This document shows, piece by piece, positions 24,579-30,793 of a DNA stretch of 62,415 nt. Made by a program: the position numbers and the translations under genes. The stretch lies in assembly GCA_016213785.1 (NCBI GenBank), contig JACQZQ010000030.1:1-62415 (forward strand), in the 5' to 3' direction. Under the pieces are notes generated by a model that saw only the letters and a program-made list of their open reading frames with translations, was not told the DNA's origin and did no database searches. Positions within the stretch are counted from its first letter, which is position 1. Each line of letters begins with the position of its first letter. The stretch is from Acidobacteriota bacterium (GTDB lineage Bacteria > Acidobacteriota > Blastocatellia > Chloracidobacteriales > JADJPF01).

Positions 24579-25127
24579 ATGTGGGCAATGCGGCGAGTAC
24601 TTTTGTTAAATGCTTCCTATGAGGCTCTAGGAATTATCAGTATGCCTCGTGCAGTTCGCTTAGTTTGGAAAAAGTCTGCTGAGGTAGTAGAGCTTGATGG
24701 AAGTGCAATTTTACGCTCCCCTACATTTAGCTTACCTGCTCCATCTGTAGTACGTCTAAAAGACTACATTGATGTACGAGCACGTCAACGTCGTTCTGCT
24801 AGTAAACGTCAAGCAGTTTTGATGCGCGATAAGTTTCGCTGTCAATATTGTGGAGTAAAAGGAACATCCTTTGAGTTAACTCTAGACCATATTATTCCAC
24901 GTTCTAGAGGTGGAACTACTGAGCCAGAAAACCTTTGTGCATCATGTTTTACCTGTAATCAACGAAAAGGCGACCGTACACCAGATGAAGCTCGTATGCC
25001 TTTAATTTCTCACCCTAGTGCACTTTACTATGGCTTAGAGAAAGCTGCTTTACGAGGTGCTGCGGAAACTCGTCCAGAATGGCGTAAGTATTTATTCTTA
25101 CCAGAGCTGGAGATAAATGTTGCTTAA
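24579..25127 (+). CDS. HNH endonuclease
   Basis: A 182-residue protein with an N-terminal RRVLLLNASYEALGIIS domain and a C-terminal HNH nuclease. A zinc pair is formed by CQYCG (about residues 87-91) and CASCFTC (about 124-130), around LTLDHIIPRSRGG (catalytic His) and the NL...CN..K ending. The ribosome site is AGGAGG. This family is widespread in bacteria and phages, where HNH enzymes act on DNA or, less often, RNA. Its position between a tRNA array and a Ro60 gene suggests it belongs to the island and may have helped its mobility. Confidence 0.9.
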   Translation: MWAMRRVLLLNASYEALGIISMPRAVRLVWKKSAEVVELDGSAILRSPTFSLPAPSVVRLKDYIDVRARQRRSASKRQAVLMRDKFRCQYCGVKGTSFELTLDHIIPRSRGGTTEPENLCASCFTCNQRKGDRTPDEARMPLISHPSALYYGLEKAALRGAAETRPEWRKYLFLPELEINVA

Positions 25128-25178: not shown

Positions 25179-25403
<225 letters not shown>

Positions 25404-25449: not shown

Positions 25450-25559
25450 TCTGCTCTACGCCCTAATCCAAGAAGTGTACATACAAAACTCGTCTGTAAA
25501 ACGAGTTCTCATAATAGAAATGGGAGCAAAAAAGACTTCTTAAACTTGCTTAGAGCAGA
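25450..25559 (+). ncRNA. Y-RNA-like RNA 1 (Tyr-type anticodon arm)
   Basis: Terminal stem TCTGCTCTA (25450-25458) pairs perfectly with TAGAGCAGA (25551-25559). After an asymmetric internal loop (CGCCCTAATCC on the 5' side, AAACTTGCT on the 3' side) a second stem AAGAAGT/ACTTCTT forms. The head contains an anticodon-like arm AACTCGT/ACGAGTT with loop CTGTAAA (GTA) and a small CTC/GAG hairpin, but no T-arm or acceptor. The stem, loop, stem plan is that of bacterial Y RNAs, and the Ro60 gene lies just downstream. Confidence 0.7.
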
Positions 25560-25613
25560 AACATTTATGGGCAAGTATTGGATTTAGTTAACCTTAACTC
25601 TTGCCTGTTCAGA

Positions 25614-25869: not shown

Positions 25870-26035
25870 TTATTGCTCCGTGTCCTTATCGGCAAAGCTT
25901 ACATACACGTCTGATTGTCTATCAGAAGGTTGCAGGTTCAATTCCTGTCGGCCCCGTTTTAACCTTATGGGGTCGTAGCTCAATGGTTAGAGCGTCTAGT
26001 GAAAAAAGGCTTTTTCAACTTGCATGGAGCGATAA
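25870..26035 (+). ncRNA. Y-RNA-like RNA 2 with permuted, four-arm tRNA head (Asp-type)
   Basis: Terminal stem TTATTGCTCCGTG/CATGGAGCGATAA (13 bp, two G-U), internal loop TCCTTATCGGC / TTCAACTTG, second stem AAAGCTT/AGGCTTT. The head reads anticodon arm TCTGA/TCAGA (loop TTGTCTA, GTC), T-arm GCAGG/CCTGT, acceptor 3' strand CGGCCCC, 13-base loop, 5' strand GGGGTCG, then a full D-arm GCTC/GAGC. All four tRNA arms form, but the chain is opened between D-arm and anticodon arm, where the Ro-type stem leaves. GTG/CAC pairing links head and stem. Confidence 0.8.
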
Positions 26036-26088: not shown

Positions 26089-26238
26089 TTTGCTCTGCAC
26101 CCTTACAGACAAAGCTTACAAACACGCATCTGACTCTTAATCAGAATAATGTAGGTTCGATTCCTGCCAGCCCCTTTTTAACTTATGGGGCTGTAGCGAA
26201 ATGGCAAAAAATAGCTTTTTCAACTTGTGCGGGGCAAA
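26089..26238 (+). ncRNA. Y-RNA-like RNA 3 with permuted tRNA head (Lys-type)
   Basis: Terminal stem TTTGCTCTGCAC/GTGCGGGGCAAA (12 bp, two G-U), internal loop CCTTACAGAC / TTCAACTT, second stem AAAGCT/AGCTTT. Head: anticodon arm TCTGA/TCAGA (loop CTCTTAA, CTT), T-arm GTAGG/CCTGC with TTCGATT, acceptor CAGCCCC closed by a 12-base loop onto GGGGCTG (7 perfect pairs), then a reduced D-arm keeping TGG. It has the same permuted topology as RNA 2, and the compensating G-U pairs in the terminal stem support real structure. Confidence 0.8.
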
Positions 26239-26280
26239 AACCCTATCAGTTAAGTCAAGTATATTTACAGATTTATTGAA

Positions 26281-26421
26281 AGTTTATTGCCTTGTGTCCT
26301 AACTATAAAAACTTACATACTAGCTCATTTGGTAGAGCATTAGCTTTAAGCGCTAAGGGTAGCGGGTTCAATTCCCGCGTATACTTAAATAGTTTTTTTG
26401 ACTTACACAAGGCAATAAATT
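26281..26421 (+). ncRNA. Y-RNA-like RNA 4 with linear tRNA head (Leu-type)
   Basis: Terminal stem TTTATTGCCTTGTGT/ACACAAGGCAATAAA (15 bp, extendable to 17), internal loop CCTAACTAT / TTGACTT, second stem AAAAACT/AGTTTTT. The head is an unpermuted tRNA: D-arm GCTC/GAGC, anticodon arm TTAGC/GCTAA with loop TTTAAGC (TAA), T-arm GCGGG/CCCGC. The acceptor is reduced to ATAC/GTAT, so the tRNA is joined to the stem through its acceptor end. It would not give a normal charged tRNA. Confidence 0.78.
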
Positions 26422-26423
26422 TT

Positions 26424-26513: not shown

Positions 26514-26577
26514 GTATTTACTAGGAATATTTATTAGAATAAAAAGGCTAATCGTTTCAACTCAGAATTAAAAAAAG

Positions 26578-28224
<1,647 letters not shown>

Positions 28225-28228
28225 GATT

Positions 28229-28320
28229 CTGGGAGTATCGTTCATCTTGCTAGACTCTGCCACCATAGCCAACCAACCTGTCGCCAAGATGTGCTGAGAC
28301 TCCCAGTAGTTATCTGGGAG
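28229..28320 (+). promoter_or_regulatory. Structured RNA with two exclusive hairpins over the vWA ribosome site
   Basis: CTGGGAGT (28229-28236) pairs with ACTCCCAG (28299-28306), and inside it CATCTTG (28243-28249) pairs with CAAGATG (28285-28291), giving a Y-RNA-like stem, internal loop, stem. Alternatively CTCCCAG (28300-28306) pairs with CTGGGAG (28314-28320), whose GGGAG is the ribosome site of the next gene. The two forms cannot coexist: the first frees the ribosome site and the second hides it. Confidence 0.65.
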
Positions 28321-28326
28321 AAAGTT

Positions 28327-29256
28327 ATGAGAAAAGAACTTAATCAAGTTGATATTTGCTTTGTAATTGATACAACAGGAAGTATGTCTAGTTTTATCAA
28401 TGCAGCAAAACAACATCTATTAAAAATGCTTAGTAATTTAGGGTCAATAGCTGGGCTAGATTGGCAAGTTGGATTAGTAGAGTATCGTGATCATCCACCT
28501 CAAGAAAATTCATTTGTAAAAAGAGTTTATCCACTTACTTATGACTTAAAAAAGATGGAGAAAGCAATTAATGGGCTTGCTGCTAGTGGTGGTGGTGACG
28601 GGCCAGAAGCGGTTTATGATGGACTCCAGGCAGCTTGCAAAGAAATGCCCTGGCGTAAACATAGTTGTAGATTTGTTATCTTAGTAGGTGATGCACCTCC
28701 ACATGGTTTTGAATTAGTAGAGAGAAAAGACAATATATTTACTACAAGTAAAAACAATGGAGATCATTGGCCTAATGGATGTCCTTGTGGTTTAACAGGT
28801 AAAACTGTTGCTGCAATGGCAGAAGAAGCACGTATTACCCTTTATGCTATTTCTATGACTACTTGTAAATTTACTGTTGGGGCTTTTATGGAAGTAGCTC
28901 TTGGAACAGGTGGACAACACAATCAATCTAGTAAAGCCGATGATGTATTAAAACAAATCAATGTTGTTTTAGATAATGAATTTAAGGATATTTTGTTTGA
29001 TGGTCTAGTCCTAGACTTAATAACAAAACAGCCCTGTATAACGGCTCAGGAAATAGCTGAGAGGCTTGTTTGTCCTAGGCTCCAAGCAGTAGCATCAATT
29101 GCACGTTTAGGAAGACGTGGCTTTTTACAAATTCCTACACAAGAAAATAAAACTGAAGAAGTTAAAGCTAAAAGGGAGCCTTCAATAGATCATATTGAGC
29201 CAACATTTTTACTTACTTCTTTAGTAAATACATTTTTCCATTGGGTAAAAAGATGA
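28327..29256 (+). CDS. vWA-domain protein of the Ro60 cassette
   Basis: A 309-residue protein starting at ATG 28327 (GGGAG 6 bases upstream). A von Willebrand A domain occupies residues 5-210: MIDAS motif DTTGSM, a YRDHPPQ segment, GGGDGPEAVYDGL and ILVGDAPPHG. The C-terminal 100 residues resemble a winged-helix region (ITAQEIAERL, IARLGRRGFLQI) and end in a hydrophobic stretch. It is a stand-alone metal-dependent adhesion module, distinct from the vWA of Ro60. The stop overlaps the start of the next gene (ATGA), so the two are coupled. A partner role in a Ro60 complex is inference. Confidence 0.8.
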   Translation: MRKELNQVDICFVIDTTGSMSSFINAAKQHLLKMLSNLGSIAGLDWQVGLVEYRDHPPQENSFVKRVYPLTYDLKKMEKAINGLAASGGGDGPEAVYDGLQAACKEMPWRKHSCRFVILVGDAPPHGFELVERKDNIFTTSKNNGDHWPNGCPCGLTGKTVAAMAEEARITLYAISMTTCKFTVGAFMEVALGTGGQHNQSSKADDVLKQINVVLDNEFKDILFDGLVLDLITKQPCITAQEIAERLVCPRLQAVASIARLGRRGFLQIPTQENKTEEVKAKREPSIDHIEPTFLLTSLVNTFFHWVKR

Positions 29257-30107
29257 CAAATGTGCAAAGGCTTATAATGCAATTAAATCTTCAAGAGCAA
29301 GAACTTTGTAAAACACAGTTTCTTGCTCCTTGTGTTTTAGGTGGCAAAATACAAACTAAAGTATCAAATTTGGTTTATAAATTTGAACCTACACCTAAAG
29401 ACTTTATTGGATGGGCAATTTTTCAACCAATAAGCGAAAAAGTAGCTAGAGTAGTTGAGGAAGCTAGCTTTCCAATGATAAGCGAGTATCTAAAACTATT
29501 TAAGGCTTTTCGTTTTCGCTTAGCTTATAAGCTAGAGTCCCTAACTTGGCTAGCATATCCTGCTAATGAGTCAGATATGAAGCAAAGACTAGGGGTAGTA
29601 AAACCTGTAGCTATTAATCTAGCAACCGAAGCTACTCAACTAGAACAAGTTATAGCTCGTTATGATGGTGGGGCTTGGTGGTTTGAAGATATAGACCGAA
29701 GCGCAAATCCTTTTATTAGCGAAGAGTTACGTAATTCATTAGCTAAAAAATTGTCTGCAAAAGACTTAAACTTTTCAAATCTTACCCCTGAAATGCGAGT
29801 TACCTATAGTTTAATTGAAGCTAAAGAAAAAAAAGAACAAGAAATTAAACTTAAGCTATTCCAAAACAAAGACGAAGTTAGGCTAAAAGAGGCTTTAAGA
29901 ATAGGTGGAAATGCTAGGTTAAAACAATTTTCTGATAGAGGTGATTTTTGGTTAGTAGATTGGACAACCAAAGATGGTCAAAGACATAGTTCTGCTATAT
30001 CTAAAAGAGATTTAACGGTAGTTAGCTCAGGAATTTGCTTAAGTGGCTTAGATCGTAATTTTGATTTACAGTCTTTAGTAAAAGTAATGGAACAACGTGA
30101 TAATTAA
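29253..30107 (+). CDS. Unrecognised protein of the Ro60/ThiF cassette
   Basis: A 284-residue soluble protein, translationally coupled to the vWA gene (ATGA). Visible features are an FIGWAIFQPISEKVARVVEE segment near residue 50, ARYDGGAWWFEDIDRSANP near 145-163, a charged helix (SLIEAKEKKEQEIKLKLFQ) near 190-210 and a C-terminal beta-rich part with FWLVDWTTKDGQRHSSAI. I do not recognise a family. The position between a vWA gene and an E1-like gene, with a beta-grasp protein upstream, raises the possibility of an E2-like or adaptor role, but I see no conserved Cys suited to catalysis. Confidence 0.7.
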   Translation: MTNVQRLIMQLNLQEQELCKTQFLAPCVLGGKIQTKVSNLVYKFEPTPKDFIGWAIFQPISEKVARVVEEASFPMISEYLKLFKAFRFRLAYKLESLTWLAYPANESDMKQRLGVVKPVAINLATEATQLEQVIARYDGGAWWFEDIDRSANPFISEELRNSLAKKLSAKDLNFSNLTPEMRVTYSLIEAKEKKEQEIKLKLFQNKDEVRLKEALRIGGNARLKQFSDRGDFWLVDWTTKDGQRHSSAISKRDLTVVSSGICLSGLDRNFDLQSLVKVMEQRDN

Positions 30108-30148
30108 AGAGCAAAGTAGAGTTTCTGCTCTGGATTAAAGGGGGAACA

Positions 30149-30793
30149 ATGAATTTAGCACAATTTTTTCATGAAGAGCTTAACCGCAGTAAAACAACTA
30201 TGAAAAAACTATATGATTTTCCTCTTAGCATTTGTGGTGCAGGTGCACTTGGCGCTAATTTATGTGAAAACCTTGCCAGAAGCGGGTTTAGCCAGCTTAG
30301 GTTGATAGATAAAGATCGAATTGAAGAGCGTAATCTTTCTACCCAACCCTATTTTCGTACTGATATTGGAGCACAAAAAGCTAAGATTGTGGCTAATAAT
30401 CTTTATCGAGCATTGGGAACTAAAGTAGATAGTAAAACTGAAGAGCTAACCACAGGTAACATAATTAAACTCTTAAGTAATACTAAGCTAGTAATTGATG
30501 TATTTGATAATAGTAAATCTAGACAGATAGTAAAAGATTTTTGTCAGACAAATAAAATAGATTGTTTGCATGTTGGTTTAGCAGGAAATTATGCTGAAAT
30601 TATTTGGAATGAGCATTACAGAGTTCCATCGCCAAACCAAGATGATATTTGTGATTATCCTTTAGCTAGAAATTTAGTTATACTTGCAGTAGTAGTAGCA
30701 AGTGAAACTATTATCACCTTTATTGATAAAGGGTTAAAAGAGAACTTTACAATCACATTAACCGATTTTGCTATCAAACCCTACTTAAGCTAA
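30149..30793 (+). CDS. ThiF/E1-like adenylating protein
   Basis: A 214-residue Rossmann-type ThiF/MoeB/E1 domain. The nucleotide loop is CGAGALGANLCENLARSG; next come LIDKDRIEERNLSTQPYF with the Asp and Arg/Asn that contact ATP, a Lys in GAQKAK and the VIDVFDNSKSR segment. It is shorter than MoeB (about 250) and lacks the CxxC zinc pairs. DDICDYP offers one Cys near the crossover loop as a possible thioester site. Such minimal E1-like proteins occur in bacterial ubiquitin-like systems (for example PRTRC-type cassettes). Its likely substrate is the small beta-grasp protein at 25203-25403. Last gene of the cassette. Confidence 0.85.
   Translation: MNLAQFFHEELNRSKTTMKKLYDFPLSICGAGALGANLCENLARSGFSQLRLIDKDRIEERNLSTQPYFRTDIGAQKAKIVANNLYRALGTKVDSKTEELTTGNIIKLLSNTKLVIDVFDNSKSRQIVKDFCQTNKIDCLHVGLAGNYAEIIWNEHYRVPSPNQDDICDYPLARNLVILAVVVASETIITFIDKGLKENFTITLTDFAIKPYLS

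Follow-up and report, generated by a model that had tools for sequence, protein, structure and literature searches.

What does the short stretch of DNA between a gene for a divergent Ro60-like protein and the gene for a vWA-domain protein do? In the window analyzed here, by which we mean the whole stretch of 62,415 nucleotides, the two genes are separated by 102 bases. The initial annotation placed in this spacer two hairpins that exclude one another, one freeing and the other hiding the Shine-Dalgarno sequence (SD) of the vWA gene. The pairings and their coordinates proved correct, including the 7-bp inner stem and the partner CTGGGAG downstream, and both the exclusivity and the opposite effects on the SD are borne out by the sequence and by folding computations (Table 1). 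The observation is therefore confirmed, and a switch built upon it is plausible. As argued below, the spacer probably contains a local element for translation control.

Table 1. Features of the Ro60-vWA region and of the DNA upstream of it, in window coordinates
Feature	Positions	Strand	Basis
Probable Y-RNA candidate	25452..25562	+	Spotted by eye
tRNA-like Y-RNA candidate	25875..26030	+	Pattern search; overlaps sub-threshold Rfam YrlA match
tRNA-like Y-RNA candidate	26092..26235	+	Pattern search, motif scoring
Probable Y-RNA candidate	26274..26423	+	By eye; tRNA-like core by ARAGORN and Rfam
Probable Y-RNA candidate	26577..26740	+	By eye; tRNA-like core by ARAGORN and Rfam
Ro60-like protein gene, divergent TROVE + vWA	26755..28224	+	AlphaFold model, Foldseek
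Conserved block, Ro60 end through spacer to vWA codon 7	28214..28346	+	Comparison with sister species (L004)
First arm, CTGGGAGT	28229..28236	+	Sequence; pairs with 28299-28306 in fold
Inner stem, 5' side, CATCTTG	28243..28249	+	Fold
C-rich loop, 35 bases	28250..28284	+	Sequence; identical in sister species
Inner stem, 3' side, CAAGATG	28285..28291	+	Fold
Shared switch strand, ACTCCCAG	28299..28306	+	Sequence, fold
SD-containing arm of vWA gene, CTGGGAG	28314..28320	+	Sequence, fold
vWA-domain protein gene; SD covered in form B	28327..29256	+	Pfam VWA_4, 5.8e-13

In the first structure, form A, CTGGGAGT pairs over 8 bp with ACTCCCAG, the two arms lying 63 bases apart and enclosing the 7-bp inner stem. 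In the second, form B, CTCCCAG (28300-28306) pairs over 7 bp with CTGGGAG across a loop of 7 bases, a hairpin that amounts to -12.0 kcal/mol alone. The vWA SD, GGGAG, is located 6 bases before the ATG at 28327, within the form B arm. The strand 28300-28306 is common to both forms, which are thus mutually exclusive, while the inner stem is formed in either state in the computed folds. The window has three copies of the 8-mer TCTGGGAG, two within the element.

The product of the upstream gene is too divergent for the Pfam TROVE model. Its AlphaFold model (mean pLDDT, 81.9) has D. radiodurans Rsr (2nvo; E = 1.6e-11) as its best Foldseek match, with other Ro60 structures next, and a Ro60 fold is supported at the level of this model. 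A second, weak TROVE-profile match, below the cut-off, is found in the same genome (G000:C105:96981-97361). Many Cyanobacteria have relatives of the Ro60 gene (59 loci altogether), as a rule followed by P3 and ThiF-like genes, and the cluster of Ro60, P3, and the ThiF-like gene (26755-30793 in the window) is kept across many Cyanobacteria and some Blastocatellia. P3 has no family match, and the ThiF-like gene matches PRTRC ThiF weakly. Upstream, ARAGORN finds 38 tRNA genes packed closely together at 20700-24554; an HNH gene (24579-25127) and the Y-RNA candidates come next, in that order. A Blastocatellia relative (L049) likewise has tRNA genes upstream. A 66-codon open reading frame (ORF) at 25203-25403 has no NCBIfam match and no Pfam match above the cut-off, and a similar protein is encoded upstream of Ro60 in L072. 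Ro60 and vWA are probably on one transcript, because no terminator-like site was found in 26600-28500 and the only promoter-like site in the analysis of that region is inside vWA.

How well is the spacer conserved? Compared with that of the sister species (L003/L004), it is identical at 100 of 103 columns (97%), while the adjoining Ro60 gene is 84% identical and has changed at 58 of its 173 fourfold sites. Measured against those sites (binomial, 1.9e-14), the comparison points to strong constraint on the spacer. The three differences, namely, a +1 insertion with one neighboring base change near 28240 and a T-to-C change at 28292, all fall in internal loops. L004 shows no change in any arm, in the 35-base loop, in the SD, or in the first codons of vWA, and the next differences on either side are at 28213 and 28347. 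The conserved block consequently ends at vWA codon 7, which fits the expectation for a translation-start element. The one relative with the element retains both pairings and has zero arm substitutions; covariation gives no readout from these two sequences, because all of the arms are identical. Conservation is silent on which fold matters, and the frozen 35-base loop is left unexplained by a switch.

The element was found in only 2 of the 162 genomes of the class, bar one weak match of 28 bases in a third (G234; E = 0.0019) that covers the SD and start region only, and a vWA homologue at E ≤ 1e-30 is present in 3 of the 162. The spacer of the window bears no sequence relationship to the two other Ro60-vWA spacers, those of L072 and L005. 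The element is limited to one genus within the sets searched. In L005 (3210-7410), the vWA gene is flanked by two Ro60 genes.

Might the spacer be conserved for some other reason, either because it encodes an independent small RNA or a short peptide, because it contains a DNA binding site, or simply because it lies where local divergence is unusually low? The unchanged 35-base loop, needless for a simple hairpin switch, would be in keeping with such explanations, but no frame spanning the whole spacer survives the +1 insertion of the sister species, no promoter-like site is found just upstream, and the genome has just one copy of the spacer, the remaining matches being 14 to 16 bases long. We consider this family of explanations quite improbable. 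Several specific candidates were rejected. Readthrough of the stop codon into a Ro60-vWA fusion would be possible in the window, where no stop interrupts the 102 bases between the genes and the frame is continuous, but the sister species carries the +1 insertion. Frames for a short peptide or an antisense gene across the insertion likewise break in the sister species; apart from Ro60, the only ORFs that overlap the spacer are a 71-codon antisense ORF and a GTG extension of vWA. This insertion excludes a coding role for the spacer. A mobile or repeated element was rejected as well, given the single copy and a loop pattern that does not occur in viral contigs.

Is the folding more than chance would produce? 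Positions 28225-28310 fold with -27.6 kcal/mol (z = -3.35), and none of 200 shuffles is equally stable; for the longer stretch 28225-28332, z is only -0.99, and 36 of 200 shuffles are equally stable. In the isolated element, the computed probability of form A is about 0.98 and that of form B about 0. Making the first 12 bases, just past the Ro60 stop codon, unavailable brings form B to 99.6%, the length of this cut having been picked with prior knowledge of where the arm ends. The sister species gives 0.977 for form A in isolation and 0.996 for form B after the cut. Transcripts that start at 28234, 28237, or 28240 are also predicted to adopt form B (0.983 to 0.996), and a start at 28230 stays with form A. 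Accessibility of the SD swings from 0.63 to 0.004 on the cut. When the SD/start region was held fixed and the remainder of 28225-28312 was shuffled, none of 1,000 shuffles matched this swing and 3 of the 1,000 reached a swing of 0.5. Among 57 real neighboring gene pairs with an SD (taken from 68 sources and including the window's own pair), the swing ranks second, with one of the other 56 being larger.

In longer RNA, reaching at least 276 bases past the stop codon, the predicted balance shifts to form B in the majority of contexts, though not in all, and this holds for both species; folds forced into A and into B differ by just 1.3 kcal/mol. The element is therefore near balanced in longer RNA, and its default state in the cell is uncertain because the predicted balance moves towards form B. 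A long-range pairing of the loop with the vWA coding RNA was also considered and rejected, since the predicted partners are not the same in the two species.

What could such an element do? The reading that we favor, to which we give almost as much credence as doubt, is that a cis-acting intergenic RNA element sets vWA translation, with form A opening the SD and occupation of the first arm leading to form B, which closes it. The proposed steps would be 3-fold. (i) Form A would keep ACTCCCAG off the vWA SD, leaving the isolated element open. (ii) Occupation of the first arm by a ribosome terminating on Ro60, by another RNA, or by a protein, or else its cleavage, would release the switch strand. 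(iii) The released strand would pair with the SD arm and close the vWA site. A ribosome at a stop codon has a footprint that extends beyond it; because the first arm starts 5 bases past the Ro60 stop codon, a ribosome there should overlie or melt part of this arm. The sign of such control would be opposite to that of ordinary translational coupling. The swing may occur in cells and affect how much vWA protein is made, with the ribosome being one possible trigger among those listed.

A repressing trigger that removes the first arm fits better than a model in which Ro60 binding switches vWA on. Ro60 binding would not be needed to open the SD in the isolated element, because form A already accounts for about 98% there, and it would add little wherever form A is the default. 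The near balance of A and B in longer RNA does leave room for a stabilizer of form A. A broader proposal is that of a feedback switch in which the end of the Ro60 message decides vWA production, either through ribosomes at the stop codon or through Ro60 bound to a Y-like hairpin that lacks a tRNA module; this we judge to be improbable.

Well-folding RNA is not peculiar to this one Ro60 gene. The 85 bases past the Ro60 stop codon fold unusually well (z below -2) in 51 of 71 loci, where the 71 ends come from related loci, some counted twice because one genome can contribute both a short and a long locus, and include the second Ro60 of L005 but leave out the window's own copies. By the same measure, the figures are 6 of 44 for stretches following P3 and 8 of 43 for those following ThiF. 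The window's own 85 bases have a z of -2.94. A separate count of well-folding stretches past the Ro60 stop codon gave 48 of 62 loci; for this set, 8 of 60 loci were omitted (L003 as a duplicate of L004, and L032, L050, L051, L055, L057, L061, and L062 because they were truncated or frameshifted or their stop was unclear), the window and nine Blastocatellia were added, and one sequence appears twice, as L049 and as L091. The hairpins are unrelated in sequence across the set, and their position is kept. Form A is this genus's version of the post-Ro60 hairpin, here overlapping the start of vWA.

Could form A then be just the usual hairpin, concerned with 3' end protection, processing, or weak termination, with form B irrelevant? 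The match between the SD and the first arm would in that case be a by-product of both being GGGAG-like, and the excess of well-folding stretches after Ro60 over those after P3 and ThiF speaks for such an explanation. However, the other hairpins survive complete turnover of their sequences, whereas here neither the loop nor the SD nor the first vWA codons differ between the two species. The swing, matched by none of the 1,000 shuffles, and the lack of a terminator-like site with a T-run in the region searched also speak against it, and we find this explanation somewhat unlikely.

The remaining question is whether form A is a Y RNA. The initial annotation took it for another small Y RNA that, on binding Ro60, would turn on vWA. 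Form A has the architecture of one (terminal stem, internal loop, and second stem), it is encoded beside a gene whose product has a supported Ro60 fold, and the near balance of A and B in longer RNA means that a binder of form A could matter. The candidates upstream of Ro60 provide a comparison. They have in common an arm motif, approximately GCRCCCYAAC...AAAGC on the 5' side and GCTTTTNAACTTGYGC on the 3' side, and candidates bearing it occur upstream of Ro60 in Cyanobacteria and Blastocatellia, with 28 kept, from 20 loci, out of 76 raw matches. These elements were picked by patterns that demanded two stems, one terminal and one inner, together with a loosely defined AACT motif; the 5' motif was not demanded in the initial search. 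The raw matches were then filtered by loose motifs, so that the scores of the retained elements and their degree of pairing (242 of 252 cells) are inflated by selection. The filter discarded some genuine-looking elements, including the window's 25875-26030, which overlaps the sub-threshold Rfam YrlA match (25911-26021; E = 0.0011). We infer that the upstream tRNA-like elements are the Y RNAs of this Ro60. At least two of the five candidates in the window look like circularly permuted tRNAs set into the Ro60 stem, with the anticodon arm first, then the T arm, a loop-closed acceptor, and the D arm; those of L072 appear unpermuted, and sub-threshold matches to YrlA and to permuted tmRNA are seen among the upstream candidates.

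The arm motif is absent from 28229-28306. Scored in register, this element reaches -23.7 and -37.0 bits, whereas the lowest leave-one-locus-out values across the 28 retained elements are 12.4 and 17.1 bits, and the element's best placements anywhere are equaled by 31% and 17% of random stretches. ARAGORN and Rfam find no tRNA-like module, Y RNA, or YrlA match at these positions. On its sequence, 28229-28306 is not a member of this family of Y-RNA candidates. With form A already the default in the isolated element, a Y RNA that turns on vWA when bound by Ro60 is, in our view, very improbable. Of the earlier reading, the exclusive SD hairpins in a strongly conserved spacer stand, and the upstream form as another Y RNA is unsupported. 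A two-stem hairpin beside a Ro60 gene is insufficient for a Y-RNA call, because the arm motif common to the upstream elements can serve as a test.

If the proposed switch works, cis-regulation by RNA folding would tie the Ro60 gene to a partner gene, in a system of Ro60, tRNA-like Y-RNA candidates, P3, and a ThiF-like enzyme that is common to Cyanobacteria and Blastocatellia. A full-text literature search, covering titles and the starts of abstracts, returned no Ro60-vWA intergenic element, a scope that does not establish its absence from print.

How does the element compare with systems already described? In translational attenuators that sequester an SD, of the ermC type, mutually exclusive stems decide whether the SD is free, and a ribosome on the first segment makes the choice. 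The spacer element is alike in having two exclusive stems that govern an SD and a first segment over which a ribosome could choose between them. It differs in that the stop codon ahead of the first arm belongs to a full-length gene rather than to a short leader peptide, and in that ribosome occupancy here would close the SD, not open it. Bacterial Y RNAs such as YrlA (Rfam RF02553) likewise lie beside a Ro60 gene and consist of two stems with an internal loop, but the spacer element is without the arm motif, the tRNA-like module, and an Rfam match, and the Y-RNA candidates of this locus sit upstream of Ro60, unlike the spacer element. Metastable hairpins are reported in the mRNA of a type I toxin of H. 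pylori (PMC6733600), and the likeness is in the use of alternative structures for control of a bacterial mRNA, the difference being that the structures there belong to a toxin mRNA, whereas the element described here lies between two cistrons.
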